Shown here: positions 2,586 to 32,145 of the stretch, in pieces | Layout of the letters: each line of letters starts with the position of its first letter | Numbering within the stretch: position 1 is the first letter of the stretch | Assembly (NCBI RefSeq): GCF_037055275.1 | Contig: NZ_CP146343.1 | Coordinates: 4,710,001 to 4,774,000, forward strand | Origin: Pseudomonas sp. ML2-2023-3 | Lineage (GTDB): Bacteria > Pseudomonadota > Gammaproteobacteria > Pseudomonadales > Pseudomonadaceae | Reading direction: 5' to 3' | Length of the DNA stretch: 64,000 nucleotides | Notes under the pieces: generated by a model | Databases searched by the model: none | The model's input: only the letters and a program-made list of their open reading frames with translations | Told to the model about the DNA's origin: nothing | Made by a program: the position numbers and the translations under genes

Positions 2586-4014
2586 CCCGCAGGCCGCCCA
2601 CGCGCAGGTTTTGCAGACTGACTTCACCACCGTGGCTATGGGCAATACTGCGGGCAATCCCGAGCCCCAGCCCGTAACCCTGCTGCTGCCCGGCCAGGCG
2701 AAAGTGAGGCTCGAAGACTTGCTCCAGGCGTTGCTCGGGCACCCCCGGTCCTTCGTCATCAACGGTCAGCACAAAGGCCTGCTCATTGTCATCGATACGC
2801 AAGTGCGCGTTGTTGCCGTACTTGAGGGCGTTGTCGATCAGGTTGCCCATGCAGCGGCGCAGGGCCAGCGGCTTGCCGGGGTAAGGTTTGAGGGCTCGCC
2901 CCTGAAGGGTTACGCGACCGTTTCCCTGGGGGAGTAAATACGGCTCGATCAAGCAGTCGAGCAGGTGATTCAAGTCCACTGCCTCGATGTTTTCGTGAAT
3001 GTCCGTATCTTTCACACACTGCAGCGCACCTTTGACCAGCATCTCCAGCTCATCCAGATCGCGTCCGAACTTGTGCTGCAACTGCTCGTCTTCAAGCAGT
3101 TCGACCCGCAGGCGCAGGCGGGTGATCGGGGTGCGCAGGTCATGGGAAATGGCGCTGAACAACTGACTGCGCTCGGTCAGATAACGGCTGATGCGAGCAC
3201 GCATGGTGTTGAAGGCTCGCCCCACTTCGACCACCTCACTGCCGCCTCCGATCTCGACCGGCCTGACTTCATCCTCACCCAGCGACATGTCACGGGCCGC
3301 CCGGGCCAGACGCTTGAGCGGGCGGCTTTGCCAATGCACCAGCAAGCCGATGAACAACAATAAAAAGACGCTGCTGAGCACGATGAACCACACCTGCAAT
3401 GCCGGCAGTCCTTCTTCTTCGAGGCTGGTGTACGGCTGCGGCAACAGGGACGCGATATACAGCCACTCGCCCGGCACCATCTGGATTTGCGTCACCAGCA
3501 CCGGTGGATTGACCGGCTCAAGCGTCAAGGCGAAATGCGCCCAGGAACGGGGCAACTCATCGAGCTTGAGGCCCGCATTGAAAATGCGCAGGTCCTGGGG
3601 GCTGACAAACGTCACCGACATGTCGACATCGGGTCCCACTGCCTCGCGCAACACCTTGTCCACGGCGTCCAGCACCGCCTGTTTGCGCTGGGTCGGCGGC
3701 AATACGGGCATGTCCAGGGGCCTGTCATTGAGGCTCACCACAAACCGTGTTCCGCCCATGCTGCGCAATTGATCCAGCACCAGCGGACGATAGGCCAGCG
3801 GCAGGGAGCGCAGGTAAGCCACGGTCGCATTCATCGAGTGCGCCATGCTGCGCGCACTGTTGACCAGCCCTTCGAGTTGCGTGGTGCGCAACTGCGACAG
3901 CCAGATCGCGCTCGACAAGGTTTGCGCCAGCAAAATGGCAAGCAACGTCAGCAGCAACATACGCCCCAGCAATGAGCGGGGCATGTGCCATTTGCGCAGG
4001 AAATTAAAGGTCAT
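2554..4014 (-). CDS. gltS: Sensor histidine kinase of the glucose-responsive GltR/GltS system
   Basis: The product has 486 residues. It has one membrane helix near residues 14-36, a periplasmic sensor part of about 170 residues, a second helix near 207-230 (VWFIVLSSVFLLLFIGLLVHW region), a HAMP linker, then the H-box ISHDLRTPITRLRL with the phosphorylated His. An HATPase domain follows, with N-box NLIDNALKYG, DEGPGVP and GLGLGIARSI. It overlaps the end of gltR by 11 bases, so the two are translated together. It is predicted to sense periplasmic sugar or a derived acid and phosphorylate GltR, which controls glucose uptake genes such as the adjacent gts operon. Confidence 0.85.
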   Translation of the reverse strand: MTFNFLRKWHMPRSLLGRMLLLTLLAILLAQTLSSAIWLSQLRTTQLEGLVNSARSMAHSMNATVAYLRSLPLAYRPLVLDQLRSMGGTRFVVSLNDRPLDMPVLPPTQRKQAVLDAVDKVLREAVGPDVDMSVTFVSPQDLRIFNAGLKLDELPRSWAHFALTLEPVNPPVLVTQIQMVPGEWLYIASLLPQPYTSLEEEGLPALQVWFIVLSSVFLLLFIGLLVHWQSRPLKRLARAARDMSLGEDEVRPVEIGGGSEVVEVGRAFNTMRARISRYLTERSQLFSAISHDLRTPITRLRLRVELLEDEQLQHKFGRDLDELEMLVKGALQCVKDTDIHENIEAVDLNHLLDCLIEPYLLPQGNGRVTLQGRALKPYPGKPLALRRCMGNLIDNALKYGNNAHLRIDDNEQAFVLTVDDEGPGVPEQRLEQVFEPHFRLAGQQQGYGLGLGIARSIAHSHGGEVSLQNLRVGGLRVTLHLPRNGD

Positions 4015-22344: not shown

Positions 22345-22414
22345 GGAATTTCACCTATCTCCCCCACCAAGGCATACTGGCCATCCCTGCTGGCCAGAAG
22401 TGTTTGCCGTTCCC

Positions 22415-23923
22415 ATGCGTATCCATGTCAGTTTCATCGACCGTGTCGGCATCACCCAGGAAGTCCTGGCGTTGCTGGGCGGGCGTAACCTCAATCTGGA
22501 TGCGGTGGAGATGGTCCCGCCCAACGTGTATATCGACGCCCCGACCCTGAGCCCGCAAGTACTCGACGAACTGCGAGAAGCGCTGTTCGGGGTCAGGGGT
22601 GTGCAGACCGTGACCGTGGTCGATATCCTTCCCGGCCAGCGCCGCCACCTGCAACTCGATGCCCTGCTCGCCGCCATGACCGATCCGGTATTGGCGCTGG
22701 ACAGCGAGGGCCATGTGCTGCTGGCCAACCCGGCACTGGTGGCCTTGTATGGCCGAGAGCCGACCGGCGAAAGTATCGGCGAGCTGTTCAGCGACCCCGG
22801 ACTGCTGGCTGTGTTGCTGGAAAACGGCTTTCGCCTGCCATTGCGCGAAGTCACGCTCAATGGCCATCCGTTGATGCTCGATGCCACCCCGATAACCGAT
22901 GCGGGCGCCCTGCTGACCCTTTACCAACCAAGCCGTATCGGCGAACGCCTGGCTGCGCTGCATCACGATCACGCTGAAGGCTTTGATGCCCTGCTGGGCG
23001 ACTCACCCGCCATTCGCACGCTCAAAGCCCGGGCGCAGCGTGTGGCGGCCCTGGACGCGCCCTTGTTGATCCAGGGTGAAACCGGCACCGGCAAGGAACT
23101 GGTCGCCCGTGCCTGCCATGCCATCAGCGACCGCTTTGGCGCGCCGTTTCTGGCCCTCAACTGCGCCGCACTTCCGGAAAATCTGGCCGAAAGCGAACTG
23201 TTCGGCTATGCCCCCGGGGCCTTCACCGGCGCACAGCGCGGCGGCAAACCGGGACTGATGGAACTGGCCAACAACGGCACGGTTTTTCTCGACGAAATCG
23301 CTGAGATGTCGCCCTACCTGCAAGCCAAGCTGCTGCGTTTTCTCAATGACGGCAGCTTCCGGCGGGTGGGCGGCGAGCGCGAGGTCAAGGTCAATGTGCG
23401 CATCCTCAGCGCCACTCACCGCAACCTCGAAAAAATGGTCAACGAGGGCACGTTTCGTGAAGACCTGTTCTACCGCTTGAACGTACTCAACATCGAAGTG
23501 CCGCCCCTGCGCGAGCGCGGCCAGGACATTTTGCTGCTGGCCCGCGCCTTCATGCAGCAGGCCTGCACCCAGATCCAGCGTCCGGTGTGCCGCCTGGCGC
23601 CCGGGACCTACCCGGCCCTGCTGGGCAACCGCTGGCCCGGCAACGTGCGCCAGTTGCAGAACGTGATCTTTCGCGCTGCCGCCATTTGCGAAAGCACCCT
23701 GGTCGACATTGGCGATCTGGACATTGCCGGCACGTCGGTTGCACGCCAAAGCGACGGCGAGGTTGAAACCCTGGAACACGCCGTTGAAACCTTCGAAAAG
23801 GCACTCCTGGAAAAGCTCTACGTCAGCTACCCCTCGACGCGCCAACTGGCTAGTCGCCTGCAGACCAGTCATACCGCCATTGCCCACCGATTGCGCAAGT
23901 ACGGCATCCCGGGCAAAGCCTGA
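22415..23923 (+). CDS. gcsR: TyrR-like sigma-54 activator of glycine cleavage genes
   Basis: The product has 502 residues. An ACT domain (about 1-75, MRIHVSFIDRVGITQEVL) senses an amino acid, here glycine by analogy with GcsR of P. aeruginosa. A PAS-like part follows (about 80-180), then an AAA+ domain (205-430) with Walker A GETGTGKELVA, the sigma-54 contact loop ELFGYAPGAFTGA and GTVFLDEIAEMSP. A C-terminal helix-turn-helix lies at 465-500 (TRQLASRLQTSHTAIAHRLRKYG). The start at 22415 is set by the ACT domain start. Its target genes gcvH-gcvP-sdaA-gcvT lie downstream, but an IS110 element has entered between regulator and targets. Confidence 0.92.
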   Translation: MRIHVSFIDRVGITQEVLALLGGRNLNLDAVEMVPPNVYIDAPTLSPQVLDELREALFGVRGVQTVTVVDILPGQRRHLQLDALLAAMTDPVLALDSEGHVLLANPALVALYGREPTGESIGELFSDPGLLAVLLENGFRLPLREVTLNGHPLMLDATPITDAGALLTLYQPSRIGERLAALHHDHAEGFDALLGDSPAIRTLKARAQRVAALDAPLLIQGETGTGKELVARACHAISDRFGAPFLALNCAALPENLAESELFGYAPGAFTGAQRGGKPGLMELANNGTVFLDEIAEMSPYLQAKLLRFLNDGSFRRVGGEREVKVNVRILSATHRNLEKMVNEGTFREDLFYRLNVLNIEVPPLRERGQDILLLARAFMQQACTQIQRPVCRLAPGTYPALLGNRWPGNVRQLQNVIFRAAAICESTLVDIGDLDIAGTSVARQSDGEVETLEHAVETFEKALLEKLYVSYPSTRQLASRLQTSHTAIAHRLRKYGIPGKA

Positions 23924-23935
23924 GGCTCACCCCCT

Positions 23936-24015
23936 TGTGGGAGCGGGCTTGCTCGCGATGGTATAAGCGCGGCAAGCCTGAAATACCTCGCCGAAGCATC
24001 GCAGGCAAGCCAGCT
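23936..24015. repeat. REP palindrome, left part, interrupted by IS110
   Basis: TTGTGGGAGCGGGCTTGCTCGCG starts a class 1 unit. The mirrored arm begins GCAAGCCAGCT and stops at 24015, where IS110 begins. It resumes after the element as GCTCCCACAG (25294-25303). Joining the two gives the expected CAAGCCAGCTCCCACAG arm. Confidence 0.9.
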
Positions 24016-24034
24016 TGTGTCTTCAAGGTCTCTT

Positions 24035-24220
24035 AAACTCAGAAGGGTGAGAGCAGTGGATGGCAGACTGAAAGCCAGCGGTGCTTAAAGCACGAGTGGG
24101 AGCCAAGTCGCCATCCACCTCTCACTCTGACAAGAAGCCCGAACAGTTGGATGAGCGGCAAACTCGAAATCACAAGCTAGGGATAGGTCAGAGTGCTCTC
24201 ACTTCTTGAGTGTAAGAGGA
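24035..24220 (+). ncRNA. IS110 bridge RNA with target and donor guides
   Basis: Two hairpin loops are visible. Target loop: stem GTGAGAG..GTGGATGGC (24047-24064) with GCCATCCAC.CTCTCAC (24110-24125), inner stem GACT/AGTC, apical hairpin GTGCT-TAA-AGCAC (24081-24093). The internal loop carries AAGCCAGC (24072-24079) on the left and GTGGGAGC (24096-24103) on the right. These match the target AAGCCAG-CT-CCCAC, the right guide as its complement. Donor loop: stem ACTCTGAC (24124-24131) with GTCAGAGT (24187-24194). It carries ACAGTTG (24143-24149), equal to the element's right end, and CACAAGC (24171-24177), complementary to GCTTGTG at the core and left end. The RNA ends are estimates. Confidence 0.88.
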
Positions 24221-24227
24221 CTTGGCG

Positions 24228-25271
24228 ATGATTTCCTACTACGTTGGTCTCGATGTTTCGAAAGCGACTGTGGATGTGGGGTTTCTTCCTGCAAATTACC
24301 CGCAGTTTCAGGTCAGTAATGACCTTGAGGGCTTCACTCGGCTGATCACATGCCTGAACGAGCTTGAGGTGGGGCGGATCTTGCTTGAAGCCACCGGCGG
24401 CTATGAAAGGGCATTGCTCAGAGCCTTGCGGTTGGAGGGTTTGAATGTCTTTCGCGTCAATCCCAAACGCGCTCGCGACTATGCGAGAGCTATGGGCAAG
24501 ATAGCTAAAACCGATAAGATCGATGCTCAGATGCTGGCGAAGTTTGCGAGAGATTTCGAGGACTTGCCGCATGTTGAACCGAATAAGGATCGGGATGAGC
24601 TGGGCGAATTGCTCAAGCTGCGAGGCAGCTTGGTCAAGAGCCGGGACAGCGACAAGCGCCGGATGAAGCAAACCACATGCGCTAAAGCCATATCCACTTA
24701 CACCGATCACATCGCTTACCTGGAGGGCCAGATCAAGTCATTGGGTAAGGAGATTGAAGATGCCTCGACCGTGCTGGATCAGGAGAAAGCCAGACGACTG
24801 AGGTCGGTGAAAGGGATCGGAGCCATCACCTGCGGAACGCTCTTGGCATTTCTTCCTGAGCTCGGAACCGTGTCGGGACGCAAGATTGCGGCTTTGGCAG
24901 GGTTAGCGCCCTACAACAACGATAGTGGCAAGAAGAGCGGCCCCAGATCAATCGAGGGCGGGCGCTATACAGTGCGTGGCGCAACCTATATGTCGACCTG
25001 GTCAATGGTCCAGCACGATCCGCAAGTCAAAGCCGAATATGAGGCTCTGCGAGCGCGAGGCAAGCTTGCGAAGGTCGCTGTTGTGGCATGCATGCGCAAG
25101 CTATTGATTCGTCTTAAGCAATGCTGCGAGATGGCACGGGTTGGAGGGAGAAGAAATCTCAGGCCCCGCATTTTGATAACAAATGAGGGGCACTTTACTG
25201 AAGCGAGGGCTTCGCCAGTAATACCGCTACGCGGTATCGCTGGCGAAGCCATGTCCGAAAGGATTATTTGA
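24228..25271 (+). CDS. IS110-family DEDD recombinase (transposase)
   Basis: The product has 347 residues. The RuvC-like N-terminal domain has GLDVSKATVDVGF (first Asp), LLEATGGYERALL (Glu) and KTDKIDAQMLAKFA (two Asp). A coiled-coil region lies at about 155-200. The C-terminal Transposase_20 domain (205-310) has VKGIGAITCGTLLAFLPEL and the region RGATYMSTWSMVQHDP with the candidate catalytic Ser. The ATG at 24228 follows AAGAGGA by 7 bases. About 40 residues after KLLIRLK are unlike the usual end of the family and are encoded by a large hairpin sequence. The gene is uninterrupted, so the element may be active. Confidence 0.93.
   Translation: MISYYVGLDVSKATVDVGFLPANYPQFQVSNDLEGFTRLITCLNELEVGRILLEATGGYERALLRALRLEGLNVFRVNPKRARDYARAMGKIAKTDKIDAQMLAKFARDFEDLPHVEPNKDRDELGELLKLRGSLVKSRDSDKRRMKQTTCAKAISTYTDHIAYLEGQIKSLGKEIEDASTVLDQEKARRLRSVKGIGAITCGTLLAFLPELGTVSGRKIAALAGLAPYNNDSGKKSGPRSIEGGRYTVRGATYMSTWSMVQHDPQVKAEYEALRARGKLAKVAVVACMRKLLIRLKQCCEMARVGGRRNLRPRILITNEGHFTEARASPVIPLRGIAGEAMSERII
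25208..25250. repeat. Large hairpin in the 3' end of the IS110 transposase gene
   Basis: GGCTTCGCCAG (25208-25218) and CTGGCGAAGCC (25240-25250) are perfect arms. Nested inside, ATACCGC and GCGGTAT pair around TAC. It lies about 46 bases from the element's right end and also encodes part of the protein's tail. Confidence 0.8.
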
Positions 25272-25318
25272 AAATAAATCCTCAATGACAGTTGCTCCCA
25301 CAGAAAAGCCCAAAGACT

Positions 25319-25336
25319 TGTATCGAATTCACTCCA
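25319..25336. promoter_or_regulatory. GcsR-type binding site 1
   Basis: TGTATCG-AATT-CACTCCA fits the 18-base GcsR pattern TGTAACG-N4-CGTTCCG in one half and loosely in the other. It lies 182-199 bases before the sigma-54 promoter start region. Confidence 0.6.
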
Positions 25337-25337
25337 G

Positions 25338-25355
25338 CGGAACGAATTCGATACA
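25338..25355. promoter_or_regulatory. GcsR-type binding site 2 (reverse orientation)
   Basis: On the minus strand it reads TGTATCG-AATT-CGTTCCG, one base from the published TGTAACG-N4-CGTTCCG. Site 1 and site 2 together form a 12-base inverted repeat TGTATCGAATTC / GAATTCGATACA. Confidence 0.75.
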
Positions 25356-25418
25356 CACCCTCTGCACCCATACTGCGCAAGGCTTTGATCCTCTTGGATT
25401 TTTCCATGCCCCATAGAC

Positions 25419-25436
25419 TGTATCGATTTCGCTACA
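25419..25436. promoter_or_regulatory. GcsR-type binding site 3
   Basis: TGTATCG-ATTT-CGCTACA is a third copy with TGTA/TACA ends, 64 bases before the sigma-54 promoter. Confidence 0.7.
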
Positions 25437-25499
25437 CAGCTATCTGCCAGCGCCCTTCAACAAGCATACAAGCCATTGATAAATAACGACATTTTCAAA

Positions 25500-25516
25500 C
25501 TGGCAACCATCTTGCA
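25500..25516 (+). promoter_or_regulatory. Sigma-54 promoter of gcvH operon
   Basis: CTGGCAACCATCTTGCA has GG and GC ten bases apart, matching the -24/-12 consensus TGGCACG-N4-TTGCW. Transcription would start near 25526, about 68 bases before gcvH. It requires an AAA+ activator such as GcsR. Confidence 0.85.
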
Positions 25517-25593: not shown

Positions 25594-25977
25594 ATGAGCG
25601 AATTGCGTTTTACTGAAGACCACGAATGGCTGCGCGCCGAAGCCGATGGCAGCGTAACTGTTGGGATTACCGCGTTTGCGCAAAACGCTCTGGGTGATGT
25701 GGTATTTGTGCAATTGCCTGAGTTGCAGCCCTACGACAAGGGCGCAGAAGCCGCCACCGTTGAGTCGGTCAAGGCGGCCAGTGGCGTGTACATGCCTCTG
25801 GACGGTGAAGTGCTCGAAGTCAACCCGGCACTGGACAGCAGCCCGGAACTGGTCAACGAAGACCCGCTGGGTCAGGGCTGGTTCTTCCGCTTCAAGCCCG
25901 CCGACGCCGACGCTGTAGGCCAACTGCTCGATCAGGACGCCTACGACCGCCTGATCAAAGCCCAAGACGACAACTGA
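25594..25977 (+). CDS. gcvH: Glycine cleavage system H protein
   Basis: The product has 127 residues. It carries the lipoyl arm that shuttles the aminomethyl group between the P, T and L proteins. The lipoylated residue is Lys60 in [26 protein letters not shown] precedes the ATG. First gene of the sigma-54/GcsR-controlled gcvH-gcvP-sdaA-gcvT operon; gcvP follows after 10 bases. It is the catabolic, inducible glycine cleavage copy by analogy with gcvH2 of P. aeruginosa. Confidence 0.95.
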
Positions 25978-31559: not shown

Positions 31560-31886
31560 TGCTAAAACCGCCTTTAACTTTCGATAGCGAACACACTGTT
31601 TTAAACACGAAAACAATTGAACCCGCCTATGATTAACCTTCACTTATAACTTCATCGCCTATGTTAATAACCCGGTTTACGGGGTTATTCGAGGGGCTTG
31701 TTTTTTCAATTCCAGTTTCGTAGAGTTTGCCCACTGTGTTTGCATGGGTCGCTGGAATCGTGACCTGGGCAGTAGCTCTAAGTTTGCTACACCCGTTCTG
31801 CGTCTCTTACTTTCCTGCAACCCAGCACCAGTACTCTTTCATGTGAAAGAGGCTGTCATTAATTGTTAGCGTCAAGGAATTAAGAA
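31560..31886. other. Long leader region before the cold-shock gene
   Basis: This 327-base stretch has no gene. It holds a hairpin AATAACCC / GGGTTATT (31668-31691) followed by a T-rich stretch at about 31701-31706, pyrimidine-rich sequence, and CTCTTTCATGTGAAAGAG, a tight hairpin at 31833-31850. Long structured leaders are typical of cold-shock genes and may give temperature-dependent translation. No promoter box could be fixed. Confidence 0.5.
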
Positions 31887-32099
31887 ATGTCCCAACGTCA
31901 GAGCGGTACCGTCAAGTGGTTTAACGACGAGAAAGGATTTGGCTTTATCACCCCGGAAAGCGGTCCGGACCTGTTCGTGCACTTCCGTGCCATTCAGGGC
32001 AACGGCTTCAAAAGCCTGAAAGAAGGCCAGAAAGTGACCTTCATCTCGGTTCAAGGCCAAAAAGGCCTGCAGGCTGACGAAGTTCAAGCCGAAGGCTGA
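31887..32099 (+). CDS. Cold-shock protein, CspA family
   Basis: The product has 70 residues forming one cold-shock domain. RNA-binding motifs RNP1 KGFGFITP and RNP2 LFVHFRAI are intact, and it starts [14 protein letters not shown]. It melts RNA structure as an RNA chaperone. AAGGAATTAAGA precedes the ATG. A strong terminator follows at once, so it is a single-gene unit with a long leader, consistent with post-transcriptional control by temperature or growth phase. Confidence 0.93.
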
Positions 32100-32108
32100 T
32101 CTCGTACA

Positions 32109-32145
32109 CAAAAGCCTCTGATGGTGACATCAGAGGCTTTTTTAT
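32109..32145 (+). terminator. Rho-independent terminator after the cold-shock gene
   Basis: AAAGCCTCTGATG and CATCAGAGGCTTT pair around GTGA and are followed by a T-run. Textbook intrinsic terminator. Confidence 0.93.

Follow-up and report, generated by a model that had tools for sequence, protein, structure and literature searches.

The window analyzed here, 64,000 nucleotides at positions 4,710,001-4,774,000 of a contig from a 5.4 Mb Pseudomonas genome, carries an IS110-family insertion sequence of the IS621 kind. We consider it very probable that its left end encodes a bridge RNA, predicted to base-pair both with a single subclass of REP repeats in the host and with the junction of its own element's ends, so steering the recombinase to AAGCCAG-CT-CCCAC. 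This reading is built on guide words that match target and donor in full, six matching insertion sites (one with a G.T pair), conserved stems, covariation of guides with targets, and the absence of the element from 398 REPs with C at target position -2; the RNA, the circle and the recombination are themselves predicted from sequence and by analogy with IS621.

The predicted bridge RNA and its guide words

The two halves of a REP repeat flank the insertion sequence (24014-25296), and its neighbors, named from readings of their translations, are presumably a regulator gene upstream (22400-23923) and a gcvH-like gene downstream (25594-25977). The element and the parts of the predicted RNA are as follows.

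24007-24013, + strand: left target half AAGCCAG, left part of the interrupted REP (GCATCGCAGGCAAGCCAG)
24014-25296, + strand: IS110-family insertion sequence, 1283 bp with both CT cores included, with five further copies in the genome
24014-24015, + strand: CT core, left copy
24045-24195, + strand: predicted bridge RNA body, its exact 5' and 3' ends approximate
24056-24118, + strand: predicted target-binding stem-loop, stem 24056-24069 with 24106-24118, apical hairpin 24081-24093
24072-24079, + strand: left target guide (LTG) AAGCCAGC, 7 target bases plus core C
24096-24103, + strand: right target guide (RTG) GTGGGAGC, reverse complement of G-CT-CCCAC
24123-24195, + strand: predicted donor-binding stem-loop, stem 24123-24131 with 24187-24195
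24143-24149, + strand: left donor guide (LDG) ACAGTTG, identical to the element's right end
24171-24177, + strand: right donor guide (RDG) CACAAGC, reverse complement of G-CT-TGTG at the left end
24228-25271, + strand: IS110 recombinase with DEDD/RuvC and Tnp domains, out of frame with the sibling copies beyond about residue 296
25288-25296, + strand: right end ACAGTTG (25288-25294) plus CT core (25295-25296)
25297-25301, + strand: right target half CCCAC of the interrupted REP

A preliminary description of this region had placed AAGCCAGC and GTGGGAGC in a target loop and ACAGTTG and CACAAGC in a donor loop, and all of its guide coordinates hold on the sequence. In the window copy, the target loop matches the rejoined flanks AAGCCAG-CT-CCCAC base for base, with Watson-Crick pairs at all 12 non-core positions; the match of the donor loop to the element's own ends is likewise complete over the 11 positions scored. 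The accompanying claim that four such matches are very unlikely to arise by chance is borne out by 20,000 dinucleotide shuffles of 24035-24200, of which 18 hold two of the guide words, 1111 hold one, 18871 hold none and not one holds more than two, compared with four of four in the real sequence; the product of the separate guide-word frequencies, assuming independence, is 1.8e-8. The same description had called the bridge RNA complete, which holds for the RNA but does not extend to the element, as the C-terminus of the window copy's recombinase is frameshifted. The left end places 214 nt (core included) ahead of the recombinase start codon, a trait of the IS110 group as opposed to the IS1111 group, and the target loop precedes the donor loop within it, as is typical of IS621-type elements. 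At the gathering score, no Rfam family covers the bridge RNA region, with two matches elsewhere in the window; a match to the cspA thermoregulator lies at 31725-32142 (score 78.8, gathering score 78).

Genomic copies and choice among host REP sites

The host genome contains six full-length copies of the element, namely the window copy and five siblings. The left flank reads AAGCCAG in all six, and the right flank reads CCCAC in five and CCCAT in the sixth (L084), whose last position is compatible with a G.T pair to the guide. Comparison of the other genomic copies with their guides, which the preliminary description had put forward as a check, therefore finds six of six at AAGCCAG-CT-CCCA(C/T). 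Outside the REP the flanks are unlike among copies, except that some 50 further left bases are similar in L083 and L085; since the right flanks of these two are unlike each other, all six copies were taken as separate insertions. None of the listed differences among the six falls inside a guide word; in three of them the base at LDG+1 is not a match for the core C. Megablast returned no plasmid match to the element. An exact empty orthologous site was not found among 26 loci, 21 of which align to both flanks and none of which matches the element, a short REP-bearing gap staying unaligned; two free REPs of the same genome (L212 and L213) therefore served as the empty-site reference in place of an orthologue.

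Uninterrupted host sites comprise 398 AAGCCCG-CT-CCCAC and 2 AAGCCAG-CT-CCCAC, and all four variants at target position -2 together number 410. The element occupies five of seven perfect AAGCCAG-CT-CCCAC sites vs none of the 398 AAGCCCG-CT-CCCAC sites (Fisher p 2.4e-10). This comparison treats insertions as independent, and context outside the 14 bases confounds a single-base claim, since the AAGCCAG sites belong to a single REP subclass whose upstream sequence is distinctive. Because five of seven perfect sites are filled and none of the 398 REP sites one base away, base pairing likely picks the insertion site almost letter by letter. Exact left halves of this subclass occur 15 times in the genome, six adjoining the element and nine standing without it, and within the subclass the right half also separates occupied from free sites, with five of seven perfect sites filled compared with one of eight imperfect ones (p 0.04).

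Relatives whose guides read C at target position -2 provide the converse case: in eight genomes, 29 of 29 counted insertions lie at AAGCCCG, while free AAGCCAG sites go unused in G219 (467), G175 (475) and G179 (316). Under random choice of sites in the C-reading genomes, the joint probability of this outcome is 2.4e-4, to which G219 (0.024), G262 (0.11) and G175 (0.21) contribute most. Seventeen genomes were counted and eight entered this test; the site-choice counts as a whole set aside the sixth copy of G000 (CCCAT), the fifth of G219 (AGGCCCG) and the partial copy of G046, together with G165, G158, G188, G188b, G289, G018, G161, G127, G228 and G265, which have other targets, contig ends or N.

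We lean toward the view that bridge-RNA guides divide the host REPs among element lineages nearly base by base, such that this lineage would fill a rare subclass (5/7) and ignore some 400 sites one base away, and C-reading relatives would leave hundreds of AAGCCAG sites alone. If so, natural populations already hold a genome-wide specificity experiment for RNA-guided recombination. The counts check bridge-RNA targeting independently, in a genome as it occurs in nature, where decoy sites that are nearly identical and number in the hundreds serve as a built-in control. Native guide specificity thereby becomes a counting problem that can be answered from IS110-bearing genomes. Elements with A-reading and C-reading guides further constitute a matched set for measuring mismatch tolerance.

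Covariation of guides and targets among relatives

A survey of the genus found a recombinase protein match at E <= 0.001 in at least 104 of 298 genomes, which were drawn from a larger group and in each of which up to seven candidates were scored, so that further copies may exist. From the relatives, 100 stretches were analyzed, with element ends set from copies that share them and by end motifs. Most of the closer relatives lie in REP-like sequence and have the donor ACAGTTG-CT and the left end CT-TGTG.

The guides change with the targets among these relatives. Across 18 aligned groups, 182 of 216 guide-target positions form Watson-Crick pairs (permutation mean 151.8, maximum 178 of 20,000), and counting G.T pairs raises the total to 191, above the maximum of 188 in 20,000 permutations. 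Sliding the guide by one base reduces 191 to 107 or 101, and any slide of 1-12 bases gives at most 131. An alignment-free search covering 31 groups, some with elements of only about 30% protein identity, scored 418.5, compared with a permutation mean of 372.2 and a maximum of 391.3 (20,000 permutations). A reversed-RNA control came out rather high in this search (mean 12.5 vs 13.5), as the best of many placements is taken, and permutation is the fairer control. In 24 of the 31 groups no other group's target scores better than the group's own; the remaining seven fit other groups' targets better, namely 16 for G165, 11 for G289, two each for G197 and G164, and one each for G018, G158 and G060. 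The best alignment-free placement lies off the aligned guide position in L106 and L132.

Examples of covariation include target TCCTA with guide TAGGA (L087), target CCTAC with guide GTAGG (L105), and target CACTC with guide GAGTG in L140 and L150, where the donor ACGGTTG is likewise met by the guide ACGGTTG. In the aligned register, the left guide pairs at four of seven positions in L132 and at two of seven in L140 and L150; the register of L140 is off by one, reaching 14 of 15 in the alignment-free search, and L150 stays low at 11.7. G165 pairs at five of seven positions, and the right guide of L095 contains a mismatch. In nine groups, position -6 of the left guide stays unpaired, with U opposite target A (guide ATGCCC-), a mismatch kept across several genomes. 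Donor covariation amounts to 180 of 198, which 318 of 20,000 permutations reach, a weak signal given how little the donors differ; in G018 the right end and the donor guide are offset by one base (2/7). Elements with no recognized left end (L131, L138 and L146) and L149 stood outside the grouping, the aligned set excluded L129 and L139 (N, or a left end over 260 nt), and G127, having no full left flank, stood outside the permutation. A truncated copy in another Pseudomonas carries the same guides, and its left flank matches at six of seven positions.

These results bear directly on whether the recombinase itself might read the REP sequence or hairpin by protein-DNA contact, the RNA words being a by-product such as a captured old target. 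Such contact would suit the palindromic nature of REPs, the insertion of ISPsy8 (IS3 family) at the axis of a predicted REP hairpin (PMC1525189), and the tendency of the closer relatives, too, to lie in REP-like sequence. We nonetheless judge it very improbable, as each guide word has a set position within a conserved two-loop RNA and the target words are divided 7+5 by a hairpin and read on opposite strands, an arrangement that captured target DNA would not produce. The guide words also change with the targets across groups, in a register whose match falls sharply on a one-base slide.

A further candidate, the exchange of bridge RNAs between elements, was suggested by a comparison of 18 elements, in which 152 of 153 pairs show greater similarity in the non-coding core than in the recombinase gene. 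It was rejected, as the recombinase tree is not rejected by the RNA alignment (AU p 0.08) and slower change of the RNA suffices as an explanation. The recombinase alignment rejects the poorly resolved RNA tree (AU p 6e-11); the tree has 19 rows, among them L130, whose seven in-frame stops are shown as X in the aligned protein.

Fold and conservation of the left end

The stretch 24016-24230 folds at -90.3 kcal/mol (z = -5.1, with none of 200 shuffles as good), and 24039-24200 likewise folds better than its shuffles. The target stem has changes on both sides in seven of 13 pairs, with 97.4% of cells paired and four invariant apical pairs, and the donor stem has them in three of the seven pairs counted, with 94.6% of cells paired. 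The two loops are thus conserved among relatives, as the preliminary description had expected of a genuine bridge RNA: over 21 sequences, 24 named stem pairs are 97% paired and 10 show both-side changes (shuffle mean 5.8, slid versions 0-3), and the guides covary with the targets. The pairs in this count were named from the window copy's own fold, and four of the 21 sequences come from the host genome, so that it favors a structure drawn from one of the sequences counted. Against stem conservation stand one of five measures, further pair types, which falls below the shuffles (12 vs 17.0), and two of the 24 pairs, which fail in seven or eight sequences. Unconstrained RNAalifold pairs the donor guide with the element's left end, which is the expected RNA-DNA match and no RNA stem.

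A covariance search across IS110 relatives, also suggested in the preliminary description, covered 24 further loci and gave E < 1e-6 in four, the close relatives L131 and L138 followed by L146 and L046 (Xenorhabdus). L048 (E 0.0003) and L180 (E 0.0009) came next, and the remaining distant Pseudomonas elements among the 24 loci matched weakly or not at all, with two weaker matches on the opposite strand. Within the single locus L180 the bridge-RNA model matches twice, at a distance of 1332 bases, as tandem IS110 copies would give.

Predicted circle promoter and leader hairpin

By analogy with IS621, where a promoter across the joined ends is established (PMC11208160), the element would be cut out as a circle whose joined ends ACAGTTG-CT-TGTG would complete a promoter (TTGCTT, 17 nt, TAAACT). 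The bridge RNA would be made from this circle, and the recombinase would exchange strands at CT. In a copy sitting in a REP the promoter would be broken or off, target DNA replacing the TTG. The features concerned are these.

24034-24039, + strand: predicted -10 hexamer TAAACT of the circle-only promoter (TTGCTT-17-TAAACT)
25292-25294, + strand: TTG at the right end, which would begin the -35 of the junction promoter
24196-24219, + strand: conserved hairpin CTCTCACT...AGTGTAAGAGG, the 3' arm of which holds purine-rich AAGAGG ahead of the recombinase start

In all 22 rows the joined ends give TTGCTT (TTGGCT in G018), a 17-nt spacer and a hexamer beginning with TA(A/G), such as TAAACT. The rows represent each distinct junction and group once, span 19 groups (some of them identical) and include three rows from this element. 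The junction -35 matches the consensus at three of six positions. The constant 17-nt spacing mostly reflects shared descent, G018 alone having an indel there: in this group (L120-L125) the right end has one extra base (ACAGTTGGCT) and the left end one fewer, and the spacing stays at 17. This compensated indel is in keeping with a promoter active in the circle alone. A promoter scan of the inserted copy (23900-25500) gave one site, on the minus strand, vs 1.1 expected, and none for the bridge RNA; terminator-like sites in the same interval numbered none vs 1.6 expected.

The hairpin at 24196-24219 could hide the ribosome-binding site. Pairing of its CTCTCAC with the GTGAGAG that begins the bridge RNA is also conceivable and would create a switch between bridge RNA and translation. 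The left end might, on this evidence, serve solely as a structured mRNA leader that regulates recombinase translation and has no guide role, as the folded 5' leader of ISPpu9 limits translation in the account given in PMC8450116, and the conserved hairpin does cover the purine-rich stretch ahead of the start codon. We rate this slightly lower than readout by protein contact, as it leaves the four guide matches and their covariation with flanking DNA unexplained; the leader and guide roles are moreover compatible, and the same transcript could be both. Least credible of all, to the point of being negligible, is that the element carries GCATCGCAGGCAAGCCAG along, with true ends further out and a guide that matches the element itself: the left 18 bases are indeed common to five of the six copies, and 17 to all six, yet the same sequence runs uninterrupted into CTCCCAC at the free REPs L212 and L213, and the exact left half stands without the element at nine of its 15 occurrences.

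Recombinase and the frameshift of the window copy

The recombinase combines a DEDD (RuvC-like) N-terminal domain (PF01548, E 2e-22) with a Transposase_20 domain (PF02371, E 1.3e-15) that carries the conserved serine, as is characteristic of the IS110 family. Among solved chains, only those of IS621 (8wt6, E 5.9e-26) and ISCro4 (9t56, E 7e-25) match at E <= 0.001. Residues D9, E54, D96, D99 and S233 align with D11, E60, D102, D105 and S241 of IS621, given a two-residue offset between chain and native IS621 numbering taken from the alignment; mutation of any of these IS621 residues abolishes recombination in the mutagenesis reported in PMC11208158.

The window copy is one base shorter than its siblings, and the difference falls inside the recombinase gene. 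After about residue 296 it continues in another frame, yielding a 347-residue protein, compared with 319 residues in the siblings. All five siblings end in LNAMLRDG plus a short tail, which the window copy lacks, and the LNAM stretch is present in 16 of the 20 other elements shown, the four that end otherwise being distant ones. The aligned catalytic residues are unaffected. An intact full-length recombinase is therefore missing from the window copy; intact siblings exist, so that the frameshift concerns this copy and not the family. Because the frame shifts before the conserved C-terminal LNAMLRDG, the window copy is probably not autonomous, and the siblings could serve it in trans. The distance from the stop codon to the right core is 23 nt in the window copy and about 108 nt in the siblings, measured by the siblings' longer frame, so that the right end is in both cases shorter than the left, as in the IS110 group. 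Near the right end lies a further feature.

25208-25250, no strand assigned: inverted repeat of 20 nt with a 3-nt gap, possibly a terminator or mRNA hairpin; the self-match is also present in the other five copies

Relation to known systems

Durrant and colleagues reportedly described the IS621 bridge RNA. The mechanism proposed here is the one known from IS621 of E. coli, and Pseudomonas IS110/IS1111 elements were already known to target REPs. PMC11208160 documents the bridge RNA of IS621, guides that covary with 5,511 targets and 2,201 donors, and insertion into REPs in which a G.T pair is tolerated, and PMC11208158 presents the structure of the system. As described in these two sources, IS621 shares with the present element a DEDD recombinase with catalytic serine, a left-end bridge RNA (predicted here) with target loop then donor loop, a CT core, a REP target, and tolerance of a G.T pair (here compatible at one copy); its joined-ends promoter has a candidate counterpart here. 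Unlike IS621, the present element is known from its sequence alone, has a recombinase only distantly similar (E 5.9e-26), and differs in its guides and REP, the right guide matching five bases here vs four in IS621. ISCro4, an IS110-family relative with a structure in the Protein Data Bank (9t56), is likened by protein sequence only.

Among Pseudomonas elements, PMC1525189 lists ISPpu9, ISPpu10 and ISPa11 as REP-inserted. ISPpu9 and ISPpu10 of P. putida KT2440, likened here by description only, are IS110-family elements with seven of seven copies each in REPs and a two-base direct repeat, according to that paper, and ISPpu9 has the structured leader of PMC8450116. The transposase-bound seekRNA of ISPa11 has two short stretches complementary to its REP target; unlike the present element, ISPa11 belongs to the IS1111 group and has its RNA downstream of the transposase gene (PMC11187229). 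Subterminal inverted repeats are described for ISPa11 as well. What is new is an unusually clean natural test of guide specificity from copies, relatives and the site-choice count. Among the titles listed from a library that covers few subscription journals and lacks bioRxiv, none concerned decoding the guides of this Pseudomonas group or counting decoy REPs. This is weak evidence of novelty, as relatives may be present among the thousands of elements of PMC11208160.

Other IS110 sequences

Pseudomonas sp. Irchel 3E13 (L049) carries a 400-base fragment of the element (2787-3186) with 98.75% identity, which runs into an array of 28-base repeats (TTTCTGAGCTGCCTACACGGCAGTGAAC) resembling a CRISPR array, and the array then turns to the inverse orientation; this arrangement could be real or an assembly fault. 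The host genome holds a second, distant IS110 element (L181, about 31% protein identity), and L013 and L014 hold the same short match. At its left end are ATAGCTGC and TCTGTAG, and it adjoins the target GCAGCTG-CT-ACAGG, so this element, too, seems to carry its own guides.
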